From the NCBI GenBank assembly GCA_016209155.1, contig JACQWU010000291.1, positions 1 through 7,185 of the forward strand: a stretch of DNA of 7,185 nucleotides. The letters run 5' to 3'. A program made the position numbers and the translations under genes. The notes beneath the pieces are model-generated. The model ran no database searches and was not told where the DNA came from. It worked only from the letters and a program-made list of their open reading frames with translations. Numbering within the stretch: position 1 is the first letter of the stretch; every line of letters begins with the position of its first letter. Shown here in pieces: positions 438-7,185 of the stretch. The DNA comes from Candidatus Desantisiibacteriota bacterium (lineage in GTDB: Bacteria; JACRDZ01).

Positions 438-3305
438 ATGTCGATTCATCGAATAGAAGTGGCAACCATAAATAGCTTTCCCGATTCTGAAGGATTGAAT
501 TTACTGCATGATATAAAATCTTTTGGAATAACTTCAGTAAAAGGGGTAAGAGTAATTAAAATATATAAATTGGAAGGTATTGATAATACTGATGTTTTGC
601 AAAAGATAATAAATAATCTTCTGGTTGAAGCATTATGGCAGGAGTATGCACTTGATTCACCGGTTATTTCCGCAGGCGAAAGAAAAACAGTTGAAATCGC
701 GCTGAATCCGGGGGTAATGGACACTGAGATAGAATCCATTTTGCGCGCAGTAAAGGATTTAGGGATACAAAATTTAAAAATGGCAGGCACAGGAAAAAAA
801 TATATTTTTGACGGTAATCCGGAAGATAAAGAGATTGATTCTATTACCGAAAAACTTTTAATGAATAAAATAATTCAGCATCGGGTAATAACTCCTGAGA
901 AAACCCTGTTTCTCGGACATAAACCGCGCCTGTCAGCGGTTATTCCTGTTCGAAATATTTCTGATGAAAAACTAATGGAGCTGAGCAGGGACAAGCTCTG
1001 GCTTGCGCTTTCCGAGATGAAAATATTACAGAAATATTTTAATATTTTGAAGCGCGATCCTACGGATGTGGAGCTTGAAACACTTGCGCAGACATGGTCG
1101 GAACATTGTAATCATAAAACATTCAGGGCAAACCTTAAGATAAACAATAAAAAGACTCCTTCTCTTATGTCAAGAATAAAGGATGCCACCCGTAAAGTAA
1201 ATTCACCGCGTGTTATTTCCGTATTTCATGATAATTCGGGAGTGGTTGATTTTTACGGGCAGTGGGCAATTTGCGGTAAAGTTGAGACTCATAACTCTCC
1301 AAGTGCAATTGAACCGTACGGCGGAGCAATGACAGGCTCAGGCGGTGTATTTCGGGATATTGCGGGTACTGGGAAAGGGGCTAAAGTAATTGCGTCTACT
1401 GATATTTTCTGTTTTGCGCCTTATGACCTGCCCCCTGAAGAGGTACCTCCCGGCTGTATTCATCCGCGGAGGTTATTTAAGGAAATAGTACGCGGAGTAA
1501 AAGATTATGGAAATAGGATGGGAATACCTACAGTGAATGGTTCAGTGCACTTTTATCAGCGTAATTTAACAGGCTGGGCCGCAAAACCTTCTGTAATTGT
1601 CGGAGCATATGGTTTAATCCCTAAAAAATTTGCGCATAAAGGTGAGCCTAAAAAAGGCGATTTGGTTTTGATTGCCGGCGGGAAAACAGGAAGAGACGGC
1701 ATCCATGGAGCGACTTTTTCATCCGGGGCAATGACAAAAAGTACAGAGAGCATTTCATCCGGAGCAGTGCAGATAGGAAATCCCATTGAAGAAAAACGTA
1801 TGTTTGAAGCTGTCCTTAAGGTGCGCGACAGGGGATATATCCGTGCTTTAACGGATTGCGGAGCAGGGGGATTTTCGTCTGCTGTCGGCGAGATGGGGAA
1901 AAATACCGGAGCCATTATACATCTTGAAAAAGCTCCTTTAAAGTACTCAGGACTTGCTCCATGGGAGATTTGGGTATCTGAATCTCAGGAAAGAATGGTT
2001 CTTGCGATTCCTCCTGAATTTTTAGATGAAACGCAGAAGATTTTTAGCGATTATAATGTTGAATCAACAGTATTAGGTAATTTTAGCGCGGATAAAAAAC
2101 TTAAAATTTTTTATGAAAATTCTCTTGTATGCGATCTTGATATGAAATTTTTACATGATGGTCTGCCCAAGCTTACTTTGAATGGCACCTGGACCAAAAA
2201 AGAATTAAAAGAACCTGATATAAAAACAGAAATAACAAGCGGTATGCTTAAAAAAATATTCAGTCATGGAAATATATGCAGTAAAGAACCTATAATTAGG
2301 CAATATGATCATGAAGTACAGGGAGGCCTGGTTTTAAATCCATATACAGGGGTAAAATTGGACGGGCCAAACAATTCCTCTGTCCAGGAGATAATTCTCC
2401 GGAGCGGGAAAGGTATAGCTATAGCACACGGTCTGAATCCTGTTTATAATCTTATAGATCCGTATCACGGAGCATGCTGCGCAATAGATGAGGCAGTCCG
2501 CAATCTGGTTTCAACCGGTACAAATCCAAAGCATATTGCGCTTATTGATAATTTTATAACCGGTGTTCCGGATGAGAAAGTTATAGGCGAGCTTGACAGG
2601 ATGGTGCAGGCTTCTTATGATCTGGCTGTTGCATGGAAAATGCCGTTTGTATCAGGTAAAGACAGTCTTAGCAGTACATATAAATATCCCGACGGCAGAA
2701 TATTAAATATTCCGCCGGTTTTATGCATTTCAGCTTTTGCTCCTATTTATGATATTAAAAGGACAGTAACAACAGATTTTAAAAAATCTGGGAATCTTAT
2801 TTATATGGTAGGTGAGACACGCCATGAATTGGGAGGTTCTGTTTATTATGATATTCACGGAGAATTAGGAGCTTCAGTACCTGTTGTTTTACCGGGACGC
2901 GCAATAAAAATATTTAACAGTATTTATAATCTCATCTCAAAAGGTATTATATCATCCTGCCATGATATAAGCGAAGGCGGTCTTCTTGTAAGTTCAGGGG
3001 AGATGTGTTTTGGCGGGGAATGCGGAGCAGAAATAGATCTGGGAATGGTTCCTGTGCTTTCCGGTCTTACCCAAAGTGACGTGATTTTATTTTCAGAGTC
3101 ATGTTCGCGTTTTTTGATTGAAGTTCCGCCGGCGGGGAAGAAAGATGTTGAAAAGATATTAAAAGGATTACCCTTTGCCTGTATAGGTAAAGTATTAAAA
3201 GAAAAAAGGTTGAGGTTTAAAAAAGATAAAAATATAATATTTGAAAGTGATATAACAGTCCTTAAAAAAGCCTGGCAGGCACCTATGAAAGAAATTTTCG
3301 GATAA
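438..3305 (+). CDS. purL: FGAM synthase large subunit PurL with two N-terminal PurS-like units
   Basis: Phosphoribosylformylglycinamidine synthase converts FGAR, ATP and ammonia (from glutamine via PurQ) to FGAM, step 4 of de novo purine synthesis, in the cytoplasm. From ATG 438 the protein has 955 residues. This lies between small PurL (about 720-750) and the large single-chain enzyme (about 1,300). Residues 3-76 look like PurS (HRIEVATINSFPDSEG then GVRVIKIYKLEG). Residues 83-152 look like a second PurS unit (KTVEIALNPGVMDTE then MAGTGKKYIFDG). The synthetase core follows with WSEHC (220-224), KVETHNSPSAIEPYGG (281-296), DCGAGGF (473-479), GKDS (740-743) and CHDISEGG (841-848). The large PurL N-domain is known to resemble a PurS dimer, so a separate purS may be unnecessary. 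The longer frame from TTG 402 adds 12 unconserved residues and would overlap the promoter. The stop is 9 bases before purQ, so the two are co-transcribed. Confidence 0.95.
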   Translation: MSIHRIEVATINSFPDSEGLNLLHDIKSFGITSVKGVRVIKIYKLEGIDNTDVLQKIINNLLVEALWQEYALDSPVISAGERKTVEIALNPGVMDTEIESILRAVKDLGIQNLKMAGTGKKYIFDGNPEDKEIDSITEKLLMNKIIQHRVITPEKTLFLGHKPRLSAVIPVRNISDEKLMELSRDKLWLALSEMKILQKYFNILKRDPTDVELETLAQTWSEHCNHKTFRANLKINNKKTPSLMSRIKDATRKVNSPRVISVFHDNSGVVDFYGQWAICGKVETHNSPSAIEPYGGAMTGSGGVFRDIAGTGKGAKVIASTDIFCFAPYDLPPEEVPPGCIHPRRLFKEIVRGVKDYGNRMGIPTVNGSVHFYQRNLTGWAAKPSVIVGAYGLIPKKFAHKGEPKKGDLVLIAGGKTGRDGIHGATFSSGAMTKSTESISSGAVQIGNPIEEKRMFEAVLKVRDRGYIRALTDCGAGGFSSAVGEMGKNTGAIIHLEKAPLKYSGLAPWEIWVSESQERMVLAIPPEFLDETQKIFSDYNVESTVLGNFSADKKLKIFYENSLVCDLDMKFLHDGLPKLTLNGTWTKKELKEPDIKTEITSGMLKKIFSHGNICSKEPIIRQYDHEVQGGLVLNPYTGVKLDGPNNSSVQEIILRSGKGIAIAHGLNPVYNLIDPYHGACCAIDEAVRNLVSTGTNPKHIALIDNFITGVPDEKVIGELDRMVQASYDLAVAWKMPFVSGKDSLSSTYKYPDGRILNIPPVLCISAFAPIYDIKRTVTTDFKKSGNLIYMVGETRHELGGSVYYDIHGELGASVPVVLPGRAIKIFNSIYNLISKGIISSCHDISEGGLLVSSGEMCFGGECGAEIDLGMVPVLSGLTQSDVILFSESCSRFLIEVPPAGKKDVEKILKGLPFACIGKVLKEKRLRFKKDKNIIFESDITVLKKAWQAPMKEIFG

Positions 3306-3314
3306 GAGGAAATA

Positions 3315-3932
3315 ATGAAACATAAACCTAAAGTTGCTATACTTGTTACTGATGGTACCAACTGTGATATGGAAACTTTTTTTGCATTTTCTGAAGCAGG
3401 GGGGAAGCCTCAATATGTACATATCAATCAATTATTTTCTAAAGAAATAAAACTTGAAGATTTTCAGATTCTGGCGCTTCCCGGAGGTTTTTCTTATGGT
3501 GATGATATTATATCAGGTAAGATTCTTGCCAATCAGTTAATCTATCGCCTTAAAGAAAGCCTTGAGAGATTTATACAGAAAGACACCCTGATACTTGGAA
3601 TATGCAATGGTTTTCAGGTGCTTGTGAGGACGGGGATATTGCCGTTCGGGAAACATCCGGCAGGTGAAACCACACTTGTTTACAATGATTCTAATCATTT
3701 TCAGTGTGAATGGGTGGATTTAAAAGCTACTCCGTCTGTATGTGTATTTACCGGAGGGCTTGAAGAAGTTGAAATATCATGGCCTATTGCTCATGCTGAG
3801 GGAAAATTTATAGTTCATAACTATGATGTGTATAAAAAAATGTTAAAAGCCAAACAAATAGTATTAAAATATAAAAATAAAAATCCTAACGGATCTTTTG
3901 CCTCCATTGCAGATATTTTGGATAAAAGCAAT
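3315..3932 (+). pseudogene. purQ: PurQ glutaminase portion, missing the catalytic His-Glu end
   Basis: This is a class I glutamine amidotransferase domain. KVAILVTDGTNCDMETFFAF (residues 6-25) is the typical opening, LPGGFSYGDD (55-64) the oxyanion-region motif, and LGICNGFQVL (94-103) holds the nucleophile Cys97. PIAHAEGKF (157-165) and NPNGSFASIAD (190-200) are also conserved. B. subtilis PurQ, for comparison, continues from the equivalent of NPNGS to MPHPER, which provides the His and Glu of the Cys-His-Glu triad; these are absent here. As it stands it should not hydrolyse glutamine, although PurL enzymes can often use free ammonia. If the organism makes purines, an intact purQ is expected elsewhere, or the real 3' end of this gene has been lost from the assembly. 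The wording and length suggest the longer PurQ type seen with PurS-containing PurL. Confidence 0.7.
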
Positions 3933-5117
3933 ATGAATAAAAAAAAACTTTCTGTGTGTATTGTCACACAGCAATTCGGTTCACAATATAATAAAAGCGG
4001 TCTCGGTTCATATACGAACATGCTTGTTGAATATCTTATTAATGCAGGAGAAGATGTAACTGTATGCACACCCGATGTCCCGGACATTTTAGAACATAAA
4101 AAAACCGGCATACGCTTTTATAAAATACCAGTCTTAAAATACGATATCTCCCACGGGAAATGGATATCCTTTGCATATAATTTTGCAAAAATATTAAAAA
4201 AAATATCAGGTGAAAATAAATTTGATGTAATTCATTTTACGGATGCCAGGGAAGCTCTGTTTTGTAAAAAAATTGGAATTCCTTTTGTCGGTACGCAGAA
4301 TGATTATTATTTTGCTGAAGCATCAAGTAATCCCTTAAAGTTCAGAGAAAATTATAAAGACTGGATAAAAAGATATTTTTATTATCAATTAGTAAAAAAA
4401 ATTGAACCGGTATCGCTTAAAAAGATGACCCATATTATTACTGCCGTCCCATTAACAAAAAAAATATTAAGGGAGATATATCACATTCCCGAAGAAAAAA
4501 TGGATGTAATATATTACGGGATAAAAGAAAATATAAATAAAAAAGTTAAGCGGAATATTAATGACTTAATGGCTTCCCCGAAACTTCTCTTTGTAGGGGC
4601 GAATTATCAGAGAAAGGGGCTTCCTCTTTTGTTAAAAGCTCTTGCTCTTGTCATAAAAAAATTTCCAAATACAACTTTAAATGTTATAGGAGAAAATTCT
4701 GAAAAAACCGGTATGATAGAAATGGCAAAACAACTTGGAGTGCATTCTTGTGTAAATTTTTTGGGATTTGTACCAAATGATAAAACGCTGGAATATTTTT
4801 CCATGTCGGATATTTTCATTATGCCGTCACTTATTGAAGCATTCGGAATAGTATTTTTAGAGGCAATGAGCTCCGGTGTTCCGGTAATCGGAAGCAATAC
4901 AGGAGGGATATCGGAAGTAATTAAAAATGGTGAAAATGGATTTCTTGTTGACCCTGCTGATCATGAGGATCTGGCTGAAAAAATAATCCAGCTTATAACA
5001 AACCCCGATTTAAGAGAAAAATTTATTCAGGGTGGATATGGTTGTGTGAAGAATTTTTCAATTGAAAATATGGGGATAGAAACCGAAAAGATATATCACA
5101 AAGTAATACATTTGTAG
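3315..5117 (+). CDS. purQ: In-frame fusion: C-terminally truncated PurQ joined to a GT4 glycosyltransferase
   Basis: One uninterrupted 600-codon frame contains two unrelated proteins. Residues 1 to about 201 are PurQ, the glutaminase subunit that supplies ammonia to PurL. Residues 207-600 are a full-length GT4 glycosyltransferase that starts at its own methionine. The start at 3315 is well supported: AGAGGA at 3305-3310 is a strong Shine-Dalgarno, and the gene begins 9 bases after the purL stop. PurQ homology ends at NPNGSFASIADI. Family members normally continue for another 30-70 residues with a segment of the form GxMPHPER, which carries the catalytic His and Glu; nothing like it is present here. 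Three explanations remain open: a real deletion that fused the genes, a purQ remnant whose ribosomes re-start at ATG 3933, or a chimeric assembly. The open frame across the join argues mildly for a real sequence, since a random join keeps frame about one time in three. The functions of the two halves have no known link. Confidence 0.75.
   Translation: MKHKPKVAILVTDGTNCDMETFFAFSEAGGKPQYVHINQLFSKEIKLEDFQILALPGGFSYGDDIISGKILANQLIYRLKESLERFIQKDTLILGICNGFQVLVRTGILPFGKHPAGETTLVYNDSNHFQCEWVDLKATPSVCVFTGGLEEVEISWPIAHAEGKFIVHNYDVYKKMLKAKQIVLKYKNKNPNGSFASIADILDKSNMNKKKLSVCIVTQQFGSQYNKSGLGSYTNMLVEYLINAGEDVTVCTPDVPDILEHKKTGIRFYKIPVLKYDISHGKWISFAYNFAKILKKISGENKFDVIHFTDAREALFCKKIGIPFVGTQNDYYFAEASSNPLKFRENYKDWIKRYFYYQLVKKIEPVSLKKMTHIITAVPLTKKILREIYHIPEEKMDVIYYGIKENINKKVKRNINDLMASPKLLFVGANYQRKGLPLLLKALALVIKKFPNTTLNVIGENSEKTGMIEMAKQLGVHSCVNFLGFVPNDKTLEYFSMSDIFIMPSLIEAFGIVFLEAMSSGVPVIGSNTGGISEVIKNGENGFLVDPADHEDLAEKIIQLITNPDLREKFIQGGYGCVKNFSIENMGIETEKIYHKVIHL
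3933..5117 (+). other. GT4 glycosyltransferase portion (394 residues from ATG 3933)
   Basis: This is a complete retaining GT-B glycosyltransferase of family GT4, likely to transfer a sugar from a nucleotide donor to a lipid-linked or surface glycan at the cytoplasmic face of the membrane. Numbered from ATG 3933, residues 6-28 are the first Rossmann strand and the glycine-rich SGLGSY loop. VIYYGI (192-197) precedes the second domain. LLFVGANYQRKG (218-229) is the usual start of the Glycos_transf_1 domain. EAFGIVFLE (302-310) is the E-x7-E donor-binding motif, followed by GVPVIGSNTGGISEVI. No transmembrane segment is seen. Length is normal for the family, so nothing is missing from this half. 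The ATG has only a weak GGA (3920-3922) as a ribosome site. The sequence is visibly richer in A runs than purL. The donor and acceptor cannot be told from sequence. The next gene, a methyltransferase, is a common partner. Confidence 0.85.
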
Positions 5118-5183
5118 GGGCAGGTCCCCGTGCCTGCCCAATACAAGATGGAAACCGAAAAGATATATCATAAAGTAATACAT
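5075..5183 (+). repeat. 37-bp direct repeat flanking the palindromic element
   Basis: Bases 5075-5111 and 5147-5183 are the same 37-mer with two differences (A/G at 5078/5150 and C/T at 5099/5171). The repeat period is 72 bases. The repeat covers the last codons of the glycosyltransferase (IETEKIYHKVIH). After the second copy the next codons are ATT TAG (5184-5189), presumably the original ending ...KVIHI, 13 bases before the methyltransferase ATG. The inserted element replaced it with ...KVIHL plus its own TAG, so the protein differs by only one residue. The second copy now opens with ATG and can encode the 13-residue METEKIYHKVIHI, probably without meaning. Confidence 0.8.
5112..5146. mobile_element. 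35-bp palindromic element, copy 2, with TTGTA/TACAA ends
   Basis: The unit opens with TTGTA (5112-5116) and closes with its complement TACAA (5142-5146). Inside, GGGCAGG (5118-5124) pairs with CCTGCCC (5133-5139) around an 8-base loop. The two stems are separated by a small G/AA internal mismatch, giving a hairpin of 12 pairs. It is flanked on both sides by a 37-bp direct repeat (5075-5111 and 5147-5183). The TAG inside the element is the stop codon now used by the glycosyltransferase frame. It encodes nothing itself, so a MITE- or REP-like non-autonomous element is the simplest reading. Copy 1 is at 3-29. Confidence 0.6.
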
Positions 5184-5202
5184 ATTTAGCGAGATTAAAT
5201 TA

Positions 5203-6105
5203 ATGGACACTTTAATATCAATAAAACAATGTATTTTATGCGGTTCTTACAATAATACTCCGCCTTCGGCTTCCCCTGAATATATAATTTGTAAAAATTG
5301 CGGACTGGTATATTCATCTTTGCGGTTTAGTGATGAAAAACTGGAAGAAGTTGCTAATTCCTGCGCTCAAATGCATCATCTATCAAAAAACAGGTTAGAA
5401 GCGGATTTTTCTCAATTTATGATTCAGATGGTATATGAGCCCAGGTTGAAAGATATTTCTCCTTTTCGCAAAAATAATAGAATCCTGGATATTGGATGTG
5501 CAACAGGCGGATGGCTTAGTTTTTTAAAAGAAAATGGATGGGATGCTCATGGCCTGGAATTATCTCCGGAAAATGCGCAATACGGGATAAAGGTAAAAGG
5601 ATTAAATATTTTTTGCGGGAATATAAATGAAGCTTCTTATCCGGATGAATATTTTGATGTTGTCACACTCTGGGAAGTAATAGAACATGTTAATGACCCG
5701 ATTAATAATTTAAAAAAAGCTTATCAAATTTTAAGAAAAGGCGGGATCCTGGCTCTTTCCACCCCCAACTATAACTGCTTAACCCGTTTAATCATTCAGA
5801 ATAATTGGACGGGTATGGATCCTAATTCTCATTATCATTTATTCACTCCTTCTACTATAAAAAAACTATTAACAAAAACCGGTTTTAAAAATATAAAAAT
5901 TAGGACTATGGATCTAAATCCCTATGAAATATTACATGAGTTTAAAAAAGATAAATCCTACGAAAAGCATCAAGAAGATATAAAAAAGATAAAAGAAAAA
6001 ATAAAAAATAATAAATTAATGTATCTTACCAGAGCAGCATTAAATAAAATATTAGGAGTAATTCCTTTAGGTGAAAAGATGGTGATTTTGGCAGTAAAAC
6101 CTTGA
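5203..6105 (+). CDS. Zinc-ribbon class I SAM-dependent methyltransferase
   Basis: A 300-residue cytoplasmic methyltransferase of the Methyltransf_23 / UbiE-like superfamily. Residues 10-33 form a likely zinc ribbon with two CxxC pairs (C10-C13, C30-C33; ending CKNCGLVYSS). Residues 93-120 carry SAM-binding motif I, ILDIGCATGGW, with the acidic Glu119 after the second strand. DVVTLWEVIEHV (152-163) and LRKGGILALSTPN (177-189) are the usual motifs II and III. HYHLFTPSTI (210-219) is typical of methyltransferases found in polysaccharide clusters. A lysine-rich helix (about 245-271) precedes the C-terminal strand EKMVILAVKP. The substrate is probably a sugar or glycan, inferred from the glycosyltransferase directly upstream; the sequence alone does not fix it. 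The ATG at 5203 has only a weak upstream purine stretch. Before the palindromic insertion the gap to the previous gene would have been 13 bases, which indicates an operon. Confidence 0.88.
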   Translation: MDTLISIKQCILCGSYNNTPPSASPEYIICKNCGLVYSSLRFSDEKLEEVANSCAQMHHLSKNRLEADFSQFMIQMVYEPRLKDISPFRKNNRILDIGCATGGWLSFLKENGWDAHGLELSPENAQYGIKVKGLNIFCGNINEASYPDEYFDVVTLWEVIEHVNDPINNLKKAYQILRKGGILALSTPNYNCLTRLIIQNNWTGMDPNSHYHLFTPSTIKKLLTKTGFKNIKIRTMDLNPYEILHEFKKDKSYEKHQEDIKKIKEKIKNNKLMYLTRAALNKILGVIPLGEKMVILAVKP

Positions 6106-6184: not shown

Positions 6185-6484
6185 ATGAACAATATTGATA
6201 TTAAAAAAATTATTGCTCCTTGTCTCTGGAGTGCTTCGCTCGAGGATATTGATATTAATTTAGATAAATTTCTTATTATTGAACGAATACTTGAACATGG
6301 GGGAGATAAACAAATCAGCTTTCTTTTTAATATATATATAAAAGAAGATATAATTCAAGTAATAAAGGAAAGCTCATATTTAAACGCAAAAACCGTAAAT
6401 TACTGGTGTTGTTTTTTTGATATAAAAAAAGGGGATACAAGATGTTATACAAAGCCATCTCTCCATCTCTGGCCGGCATCCTGA
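6185..6484 (+). CDS. DUF6922-like small protein, putative antitoxin partner of AbiEii
   Basis: A 99-residue cytoplasmic protein. CLWS (13-16), IDINLDKFLIIERILEHGG (22-40) and the segment ending NAKTVNYWCCFFDIKKGD (67-84) match my memory of the DUF6922 pattern: a W near residue 15, an IIeRvLeyGd core, and an aromatic W at the end. Proteins of this kind often sit just upstream of AbiEii-type nucleotidyltransferase genes. No DNA-binding or enzymatic motif is obvious, so a regulatory or antitoxin role is inferred from position only. It does not resemble the winged-helix AbiEi antitoxin. The start is supported by AGGAG at 6171-6175 and the promoter at 6131-6159. Its last 43 bases overlap the next gene in another frame, and its final 15 or so residues (RCYTKPSLHLWPAS) look unconserved. 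Confidence 0.7.
   Translation: MNNIDIKKIIAPCLWSASLEDIDINLDKFLIIERILEHGGDKQISFLFNIYIKEDIIQVIKESSYLNAKTVNYWCCFFDIKKGDTRCYTKPSLHLWPAS
6424..6430 (+). other. In-phase A AAA AAA slippery heptamer
   Basis: The run of seven A residues is phased as ATA AAA AAA GGG in the DUF6922-like frame, which is the X XXY YYZ arrangement used for -1 frameshifting. A -1 slip leads directly into the AbiEii frame (AGG GGA TAC AAG ATG), with no stop before its ATG at 6442. It is preceded by seven T residues (6412-6418), so a weak T7-GATAT-A7 hairpin is also possible. No strong downstream stimulatory hairpin is visible, and A runs are common in this AT-rich sequence. Confidence 0.3.
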
Positions 6485-7095
6485 AAGAAATAAATACATT
6501 TCAATTACCCCAGGGAACATATTTAGCAGGCGGTACTGCTTTAGCTATATATTTAAATCATAGAATATCTGTTGATATTGATTTATTTACGGAAAATGAA
6601 TTTTACAATCAACCCATATTATCTATTCTGAGTCAAAAATTTAAAACGGTTGTAACAAATGCTTATGAAAAAAATACTTTAATAGCAGAAATAGATAATA
6701 TCAAATTCAGTTTGTTTAAATATCCCTATCCGCTTCTTGAACCATTATTTTATGTTTCGGATTTTAATATATATTTAGCTTCTATTATTGATATCGCTGC
6801 TATGAAAATAGTTGCGATTGGGCAAAGAGGTACAGCAAAGGATTTTGTTGATTTAAAGGCAATTATATCAACCCGCAATTTTTCACTGGAATATCTAATA
6901 ATGCAAGTTCAAAAAAAATATAAAGTAAGTGAAGAATATAACTATCAAATAAAAAAAAGTCTGGTATTTTTTGATGACGCAAAAAAAAGCTTAGGTGAAG
7001 TTACTTTGTTTGAAAATAATGAATTTAACAGAATAAAAATAGAAGAATGGGAGAAAACAGAAAAATTTTTTAAAAAATTAATATTCAACAAATAA
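6442..7095 (+). CDS. AbiEii/AbiGii-type nucleotidyltransferase, putative toxin
   Basis: A 217-residue protein of the DNA polymerase beta-like nucleotidyltransferase superfamily, AbiEii (PF08843/DUF1814) type. YLAGGTALAIYL (27-38) followed by RISVDIDLFT (41-50) gives the GG...DxD metal and nucleotide site, with Asp45 and Asp47. DIAAMKIVAIGQRGTAKDFVDL (117-138, only key residues quoted further: Lys122, Lys133, Asp134, Asp137) is the second conserved block. The known AbiEii toxin transfers nucleotides, and relatives modify tRNA; the same activity here is inferred. The rest is a helical, lysine-rich C-terminal region. At 217 residues it is shorter than AbiEii proteins of about 300, but within the range of the small COG2253 relatives. 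GGGG at 6431-6434 lies 7 bases before the ATG. The start overlaps the previous gene by 43 bases, so translation is probably coupled. A housekeeping or non-toxic role cannot be excluded. Confidence 0.85.
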   Translation: MLYKAISPSLAGILKEINTFQLPQGTYLAGGTALAIYLNHRISVDIDLFTENEFYNQPILSILSQKFKTVVTNAYEKNTLIAEIDNIKFSLFKYPYPLLEPLFYVSDFNIYLASIIDIAAMKIVAIGQRGTAKDFVDLKAIISTRNFSLEYLIMQVQKKYKVSEEYNYQIKKSLVFFDDAKKSLGEVTLFENNEFNRIKIEEWEKTEKFFKKLIFNK

Positions 7096-7122
7096 TTTTT
7101 TTATCTGGATGTTCCATTAATA

Positions 7123-7143
7123 CCCTGCCTTTCTAAGGCAGGG
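7123..7143. repeat. Perfect GC-rich hairpin, possible IS200/IS605-like end or 3' stem
   Basis: CCCTGCCTT (7123-7131) and AAGGCAGGG (7135-7143) form a perfect 9-bp stem with loop TCT, 27 bases after the AbiEii stop. No T tract follows on either strand, so a classic intrinsic terminator is unlikely. It shares no arm sequence with the repeat at 3-29 beyond general GC content. A compact subterminal hairpin next to GGGATGAATTGG recalls ends of IS200/IS605 family elements, but no transposase is in view, and this is only a resemblance. The last 42 bases of the window are AT-rich with nothing recognisable. Confidence 0.5.
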
Positions 7144-7185
7144 ATGAATTGGCACAAAAATAAATAATAAAGAATTCCTATCAGA

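Follow-up and report, generated by a model that had tools for sequence, protein, structure and literature searches.

The contig described here raises the question of whether an open reading frame that begins as a PurQ amidotransferase and ends as a glycosyltransferase encodes a new fused enzyme, records a genuine rearrangement, or was created during assembly. The window, by which we mean the entire stretch of DNA analysed, is one whole contig of 7185 bases from a metagenome-assembled genome (the bin) of 3,075,986 bases (~3.08 Mb) in 352 contigs, which is 78.8% complete and 2.3% contaminated. Along it lie, in order, purL, an ORF of 600 amino acids (3315-5117), a methyltransferase gene and a DUF6922/AbiEii pair (6185-7095) (Table 1). 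The join within the 600-residue ORF, seen in this one draft genome, is in our view most likely an error of assembly or else a single recent deletion event, and not a new fused enzyme.

Table 1. Positions of the features of the 7185-base window.
Feature	Position	Strand	Basis
purL, medium type (PurS-like N-terminus fused to PurL)	438..3305	+	PurS, FGAR-AT linker, two AIRS/AIRS_C pairs; TIGR01736 above cut-off
5' portion of purQ (residues 1-206), with Cys97 but without the catalytic tail	3315..3932	+	GATase_5 match; alignments with relatives and 3d54_D
Junction zone	3909..3935	+	End of PurQ homology; GT Met207 at 3933
Complete GT4-family glycosyltransferase (GT), 394 aa from ORF Met207	3933..5117	+	Glyco_transf_4 and Glycos_transf_1 domains; homologue starts
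Palindromic repeat element (GTAGGGGCAGGTC...GCCTGCCC), copy providing the GT ORF with its stop codon	5114..5139	+	Pattern search, 25 bin matches
Methyltransferase	5203-6105		ORF list and domain search

The ORF is a single open frame in which PurQ occupies residues 1 to about 205 and a complete GT4 glycosyltransferase follows. The purQ fragment adjoins purL, which ends at 3305, the ORF starting at 3315. Pfam GATase_5 (PF13507) covers ORF residues 4-204, corresponding to positions 1-215 of the 260 in the profile (E 2.7e-56), and the domain is present over the N-terminal three quarters of PurQ, including the nucleophile cysteine. An earlier, sequence-only reading of this DNA had held that Cys97 was kept, and the residue is indeed retained, within the motif ILGICNGFQ. 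The same reading had PurQ homology stopping at residue 201, ahead of the MPHPE segment; the segment is missing as described, but the homology is about four residues longer, since the alignment with the Thermotoga maritima protein (3d54_D) extends through S205. When compared with PurQ, the glutaminase subunit of FGAM synthase (TIGR01737; PF13507; 3d54 chain D), residues 1-205 of the ORF align and share the motifs and Cys97 of the family, whereas the last ~55 residues of PurQ, including the C-terminal MPHPE with the catalytic His and Glu, are lost, and the TIGR01737 score of 157.3 lies under the curated equivalog cut-off of 177.8. A frameshift concealing the tail in another frame is ruled out, as the motif M.HPE occurs neither in the ORF nor in any of the six frames of the window. 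In class I amidotransferases, a PurQ without two of its three catalytic residues should not hydrolyse glutamine normally; judged from its sequence, the protein as given should not act as a normal glutaminase, whether the join is a misassembly or a deletion. What remains of PurQ is in good order: over residues 1-190, 36 of the 37 columns conserved in 47 homologues are kept, and the departures from conserved columns cluster at the join, with G200D the first of them. The fragment is almost undecayed and is therefore not an old pseudogene.

The glycosyltransferase on the other side of the join is complete. Its two domains match ORF residues 228-575 and both are complete (PF13439, positions 3-166 of 170; PF00534, positions 13-170 of 172), and among solved structures those nearest to it belong to GT4 enzymes, 6n1x and 5d00 being examples. 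Its homologues begin at the corresponding methionine, a few residues ahead of the first strand, and we therefore take Met207 to be the natural start of the GT. Set against GT4 glycosyltransferases (PF13439, PF00534; 6n1x, 5d00), the ORF thus contains the same complete two-domain enzyme of 394 residues with its natural start, and differs in that a PurQ fragment precedes it without a stop codon. The frame does stay open from PurQ into this methionine, encoded at base 3933, as had been proposed. In the alignment, IADILDKS(N) of the ORF corresponds to IAGICDKTGR in the PurQ proteins of relatives, which places the likeliest break at ~3927-3933, no more than about two codons from where the GT starts; G200D is the single departure immediately ahead of it. 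Neither an integrase nor a transposase nor a target duplication is found at the join within the window. When the 181-base stretch around the junction was compared with the rest of the bin, it gave short AT-rich matches, the longest exact one being 17 nt, which lends no support to a within-bin repeat as the cause of a misjoin.

The two arms of the contig resemble one another and the remainder of the bin. The shift in composition previously noted, from a GC-richer purL to an A-rich glycosyltransferase, is seen in overall GC, which falls from 39.5% in purL to 36.7% in purQ (1-180) and 32.6% in the GT, but there is no step in GC3 at the join: the value is 0.262 for the purQ fragment and 0.266 for the GT, against a bin mean of 0.255 (sd 0.044; 156 genes from 260 kb), placing them at the 62nd and 66th percentiles of those 156 genes. 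The codon usage of both is ordinary for the bin, with purL a mild outlier. A palindromic repeat element, present in 25 exact-pattern copies of two loop types in the bin (0 for a control pattern), lies on both arms of the contig, at 5-29 on the left end and at the GT stop codon; the loci examined from other genomes showed no copy of it. The bin-like GC3, the codon usage and the presence of the element on both sides indicate that both arms are native to this genome, and a chimera between species is unlikely. As compositional evidence, this argues against a cross-species chimera; it does not count against a misjoin inside one genome, nor against a deletion of very recent date.

The missing tail was sought in the bin and the join in other genomes, and the results bear on each of the explanations. 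Of the checks the sequence-only reading had suggested, the search of the genome for an intact purQ or for the MPHPE-coding end returned neither: the Pfam model found this purQ and no second one in the bin, and a profile built from the tail alone gave no match in the bin, while in a control it recovered the tail from each of 10 other genomes (E-values 1e-33 to 1e-7). A second purQ or a displaced tail is thereby ruled out for the bin as assembled; since the bin is 79% complete, the absence of the tail from these contigs is suggestive only. Among ~67 distinct PurQ homologues from relatives in several phyla the tail is kept in all, one of them having PHPD for PHPE, and a survey of 157 further genomes with the Pfam model gave matches in 121 and replacement of the tail by another domain in 0. 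Incomplete hits in that survey lay at contig edges, were two hits in one frame or split over two frames, or, in one case, were a small isolated fragment. The loss of the tail is therefore more than chance variation. The other suggested check, a search of related genomes for the same join, found it in none: the join is absent from 60 relatives, the compared genomes of the phylum, a set of chosen genomes, the Omnitrophota loci and viral contigs, and the replacement of the PurQ tail is likewise absent from the 157 further genomes, searched with the PurQ part. The closest genomes compared with the source are four of the same phylum, and because none is closer the join lacks an independent witness.

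The purine genes of the bin and its relatives provide the setting for this loss. Medium PurL works with a separate PurQ (PMC3261824), and the arrangement here matches the archaeal mdPurL system in that a PurS-like N-terminus is joined to PurL and purQ follows as a gene of its own (PMC3261824); it differs in that the PurQ partner is truncated. A TTG at 402 is also possible as the start of purL. The protein departs from 33 of 232 highly conserved columns, the most distant homologues departing at up to 30, and being near their range PurL is divergent rather than broken. In a scan, its nearest relatives came mostly from Omnitrophota; identities were 44-49%, apart from a partial match at 57%. Its GC of 39.5% stands at the 96th percentile and its codon usage at the 15th among genes sampled from the bin; the high GC, the less typical codon usage and the mostly Omnitrophota matches might hint at transfer of purL. 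In relatives whose contig continues past purL, an intact purQ is found there, usually followed by purM or purF (read by eye from sequence starts), and no relative of this GT4 was found near purQ in these loci. Close relatives with an intact purQ at this site and the glycosyltransferase elsewhere had been named as the mark of an assembly chimera; the relatives do have an intact purQ and no such GT nearby, although they are distant and not close. A PurM-like gene of the bin lies on a different contig and is not preceded by a purQ tail. In two genomes of the same phylum, PurQ lies inside a frame of 1230-1251 aa, as against the separate purL and purQ of the window; these frames are probably single-chain PurL-PurQ.

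The earlier reading had left a choice between a deletion that fused two loci and a misassembly. Both still stand, though the choice is narrower, and we give an assembly misjoin an even chance, slightly ahead of a real deletion; that the fault lies in the assembly rather than in the DNA is what we infer, and the weighting is our judgement and not a computed figure. In this account the assembly, having followed purL and the first 205 purQ codons, would have continued into the beginning of an unrelated GT4 gene that probably comes from the same genome. That the frame stayed open across the join would then be a coincidence with a chance of about one in three, and the organism itself would carry a complete purQ, with the glycosyltransferase at some other place. 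We favor a misjoin because the source is a fragmented metagenome, no relative carries the join, the PurQ piece is undecayed and the loss of a single-copy core gene is rare. The retention of 36 of 37 columns to residue 190 is what would be expected if the true gene were intact, and, as the bin has PurL and PurM yet no other purQ, losing its one glutaminase would be costly. Counting against a misjoin, the missing tail is on no other contig of the bin, where such an error might have left it. That absence, set beside the recovery of the tail in all ten control genomes, favors a genuine deletion or rearrangement that arose recently in the population sampled and would have removed the end of purQ and set the remainder in frame with the GT4 start; so do the native character of both arms by GC3, codon usage and repeat element, and the lack of any misleading repeat in the bin at the join. 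We regard such a deletion as a serious contender, of somewhat less than even probability: it is seen in no relative, it would have to be very recent given the almost undecayed PurQ piece, it would take away the sole PurQ observed in the bin, and the bin is a fragmented draft. Under a deletion PurQ would be a dead glutaminase, with Cys kept and His and Glu gone, and the GT could be produced either within a fusion or independently from its own ATG; PurL would then, we infer, have to run on free ammonia, or purines would have to be taken up.

The contig could also arise by insertion, a segment starting with the GT gene having entered purQ and left the tail in unassembled sequence to the right of the contig. 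Genes often found in variable regions do occupy the right side (the GT4, the methyltransferase and the AbiEii-like pair) and the bin is only 79% complete, but the tail is in neither window nor bin and the join within the window bears no integrase, transposase or target duplication, and we hold an insertion to be improbable. We attach still less weight to a functional, selected fusion in which the PurQ piece docks on or regulates PurL and carries the glycosyltransferase. Such a protein would accord with the open frame over the join, the complete GT and a PurQ undecayed to residue 190; however, it has no linker between the parts, its PurQ piece lacks two of the three catalytic residues along with the last part of the domain, and the new amidotransferase-glycosyltransferase fusion held out as a prospect by the sequence-only reading has an architecture found in no independent genome examined. 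Least probable of all, and close to negligible, is that a PurQ-GT4 protein in this uncultured lineage docks on an ammonia-fed PurL and tethers a glycosyltransferase to a purine enzyme.

In archaeal PurQ the catalytic triad is reported to be present, with Cys and Glu fully conserved, and Memar_1841 of Methanoculleus marisnigri is a partial PurQ-like protein without the triad residues that has been read as gene decay (PMC3261824). The ORF described here resembles Memar_1841 in being a PurQ-like remnant short of catalytic-triad residues. The archaeal protein, in contrast, is without ~150 residues and all three triad residues, and its genome keeps a full-length purQ (PMC3261824), whereas the present ORF retains Cys and the incomplete bin shows no second purQ. 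Were the join genuine and fixed, the locus would offer a natural PurL without a glutaminase, with which an FGAM synthase living on ammonia in nature could be tested. For now the locus serves mainly as a caution: on one contig of a draft genome, an in-frame fusion can look convincing and yet have no support in any relative.

Further observations concern the right side of the contig. A 43-nt direct repeat of the GT 3' end (5075-5117 and 5147-5189, 91% identical) flanks the palindromic repeat element; it looks as if insertion of the element duplicated the end of the GT gene, and because the copies have diverged the repeat is not an assembly duplicate. Beyond the methyltransferase gene, the DUF6922 ORF (6185-6484) overlaps that of the AbiEii-like nucleotidyltransferase (6442-7095), a layout that resembles an AbiE-type toxin-antitoxin pair. 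At the right end of the contig, 7110-7156 holds a hairpin with almost perfect pairing (CCCTGCCTT tct AAGGCAGGG), which may be a terminator or a further repeat.
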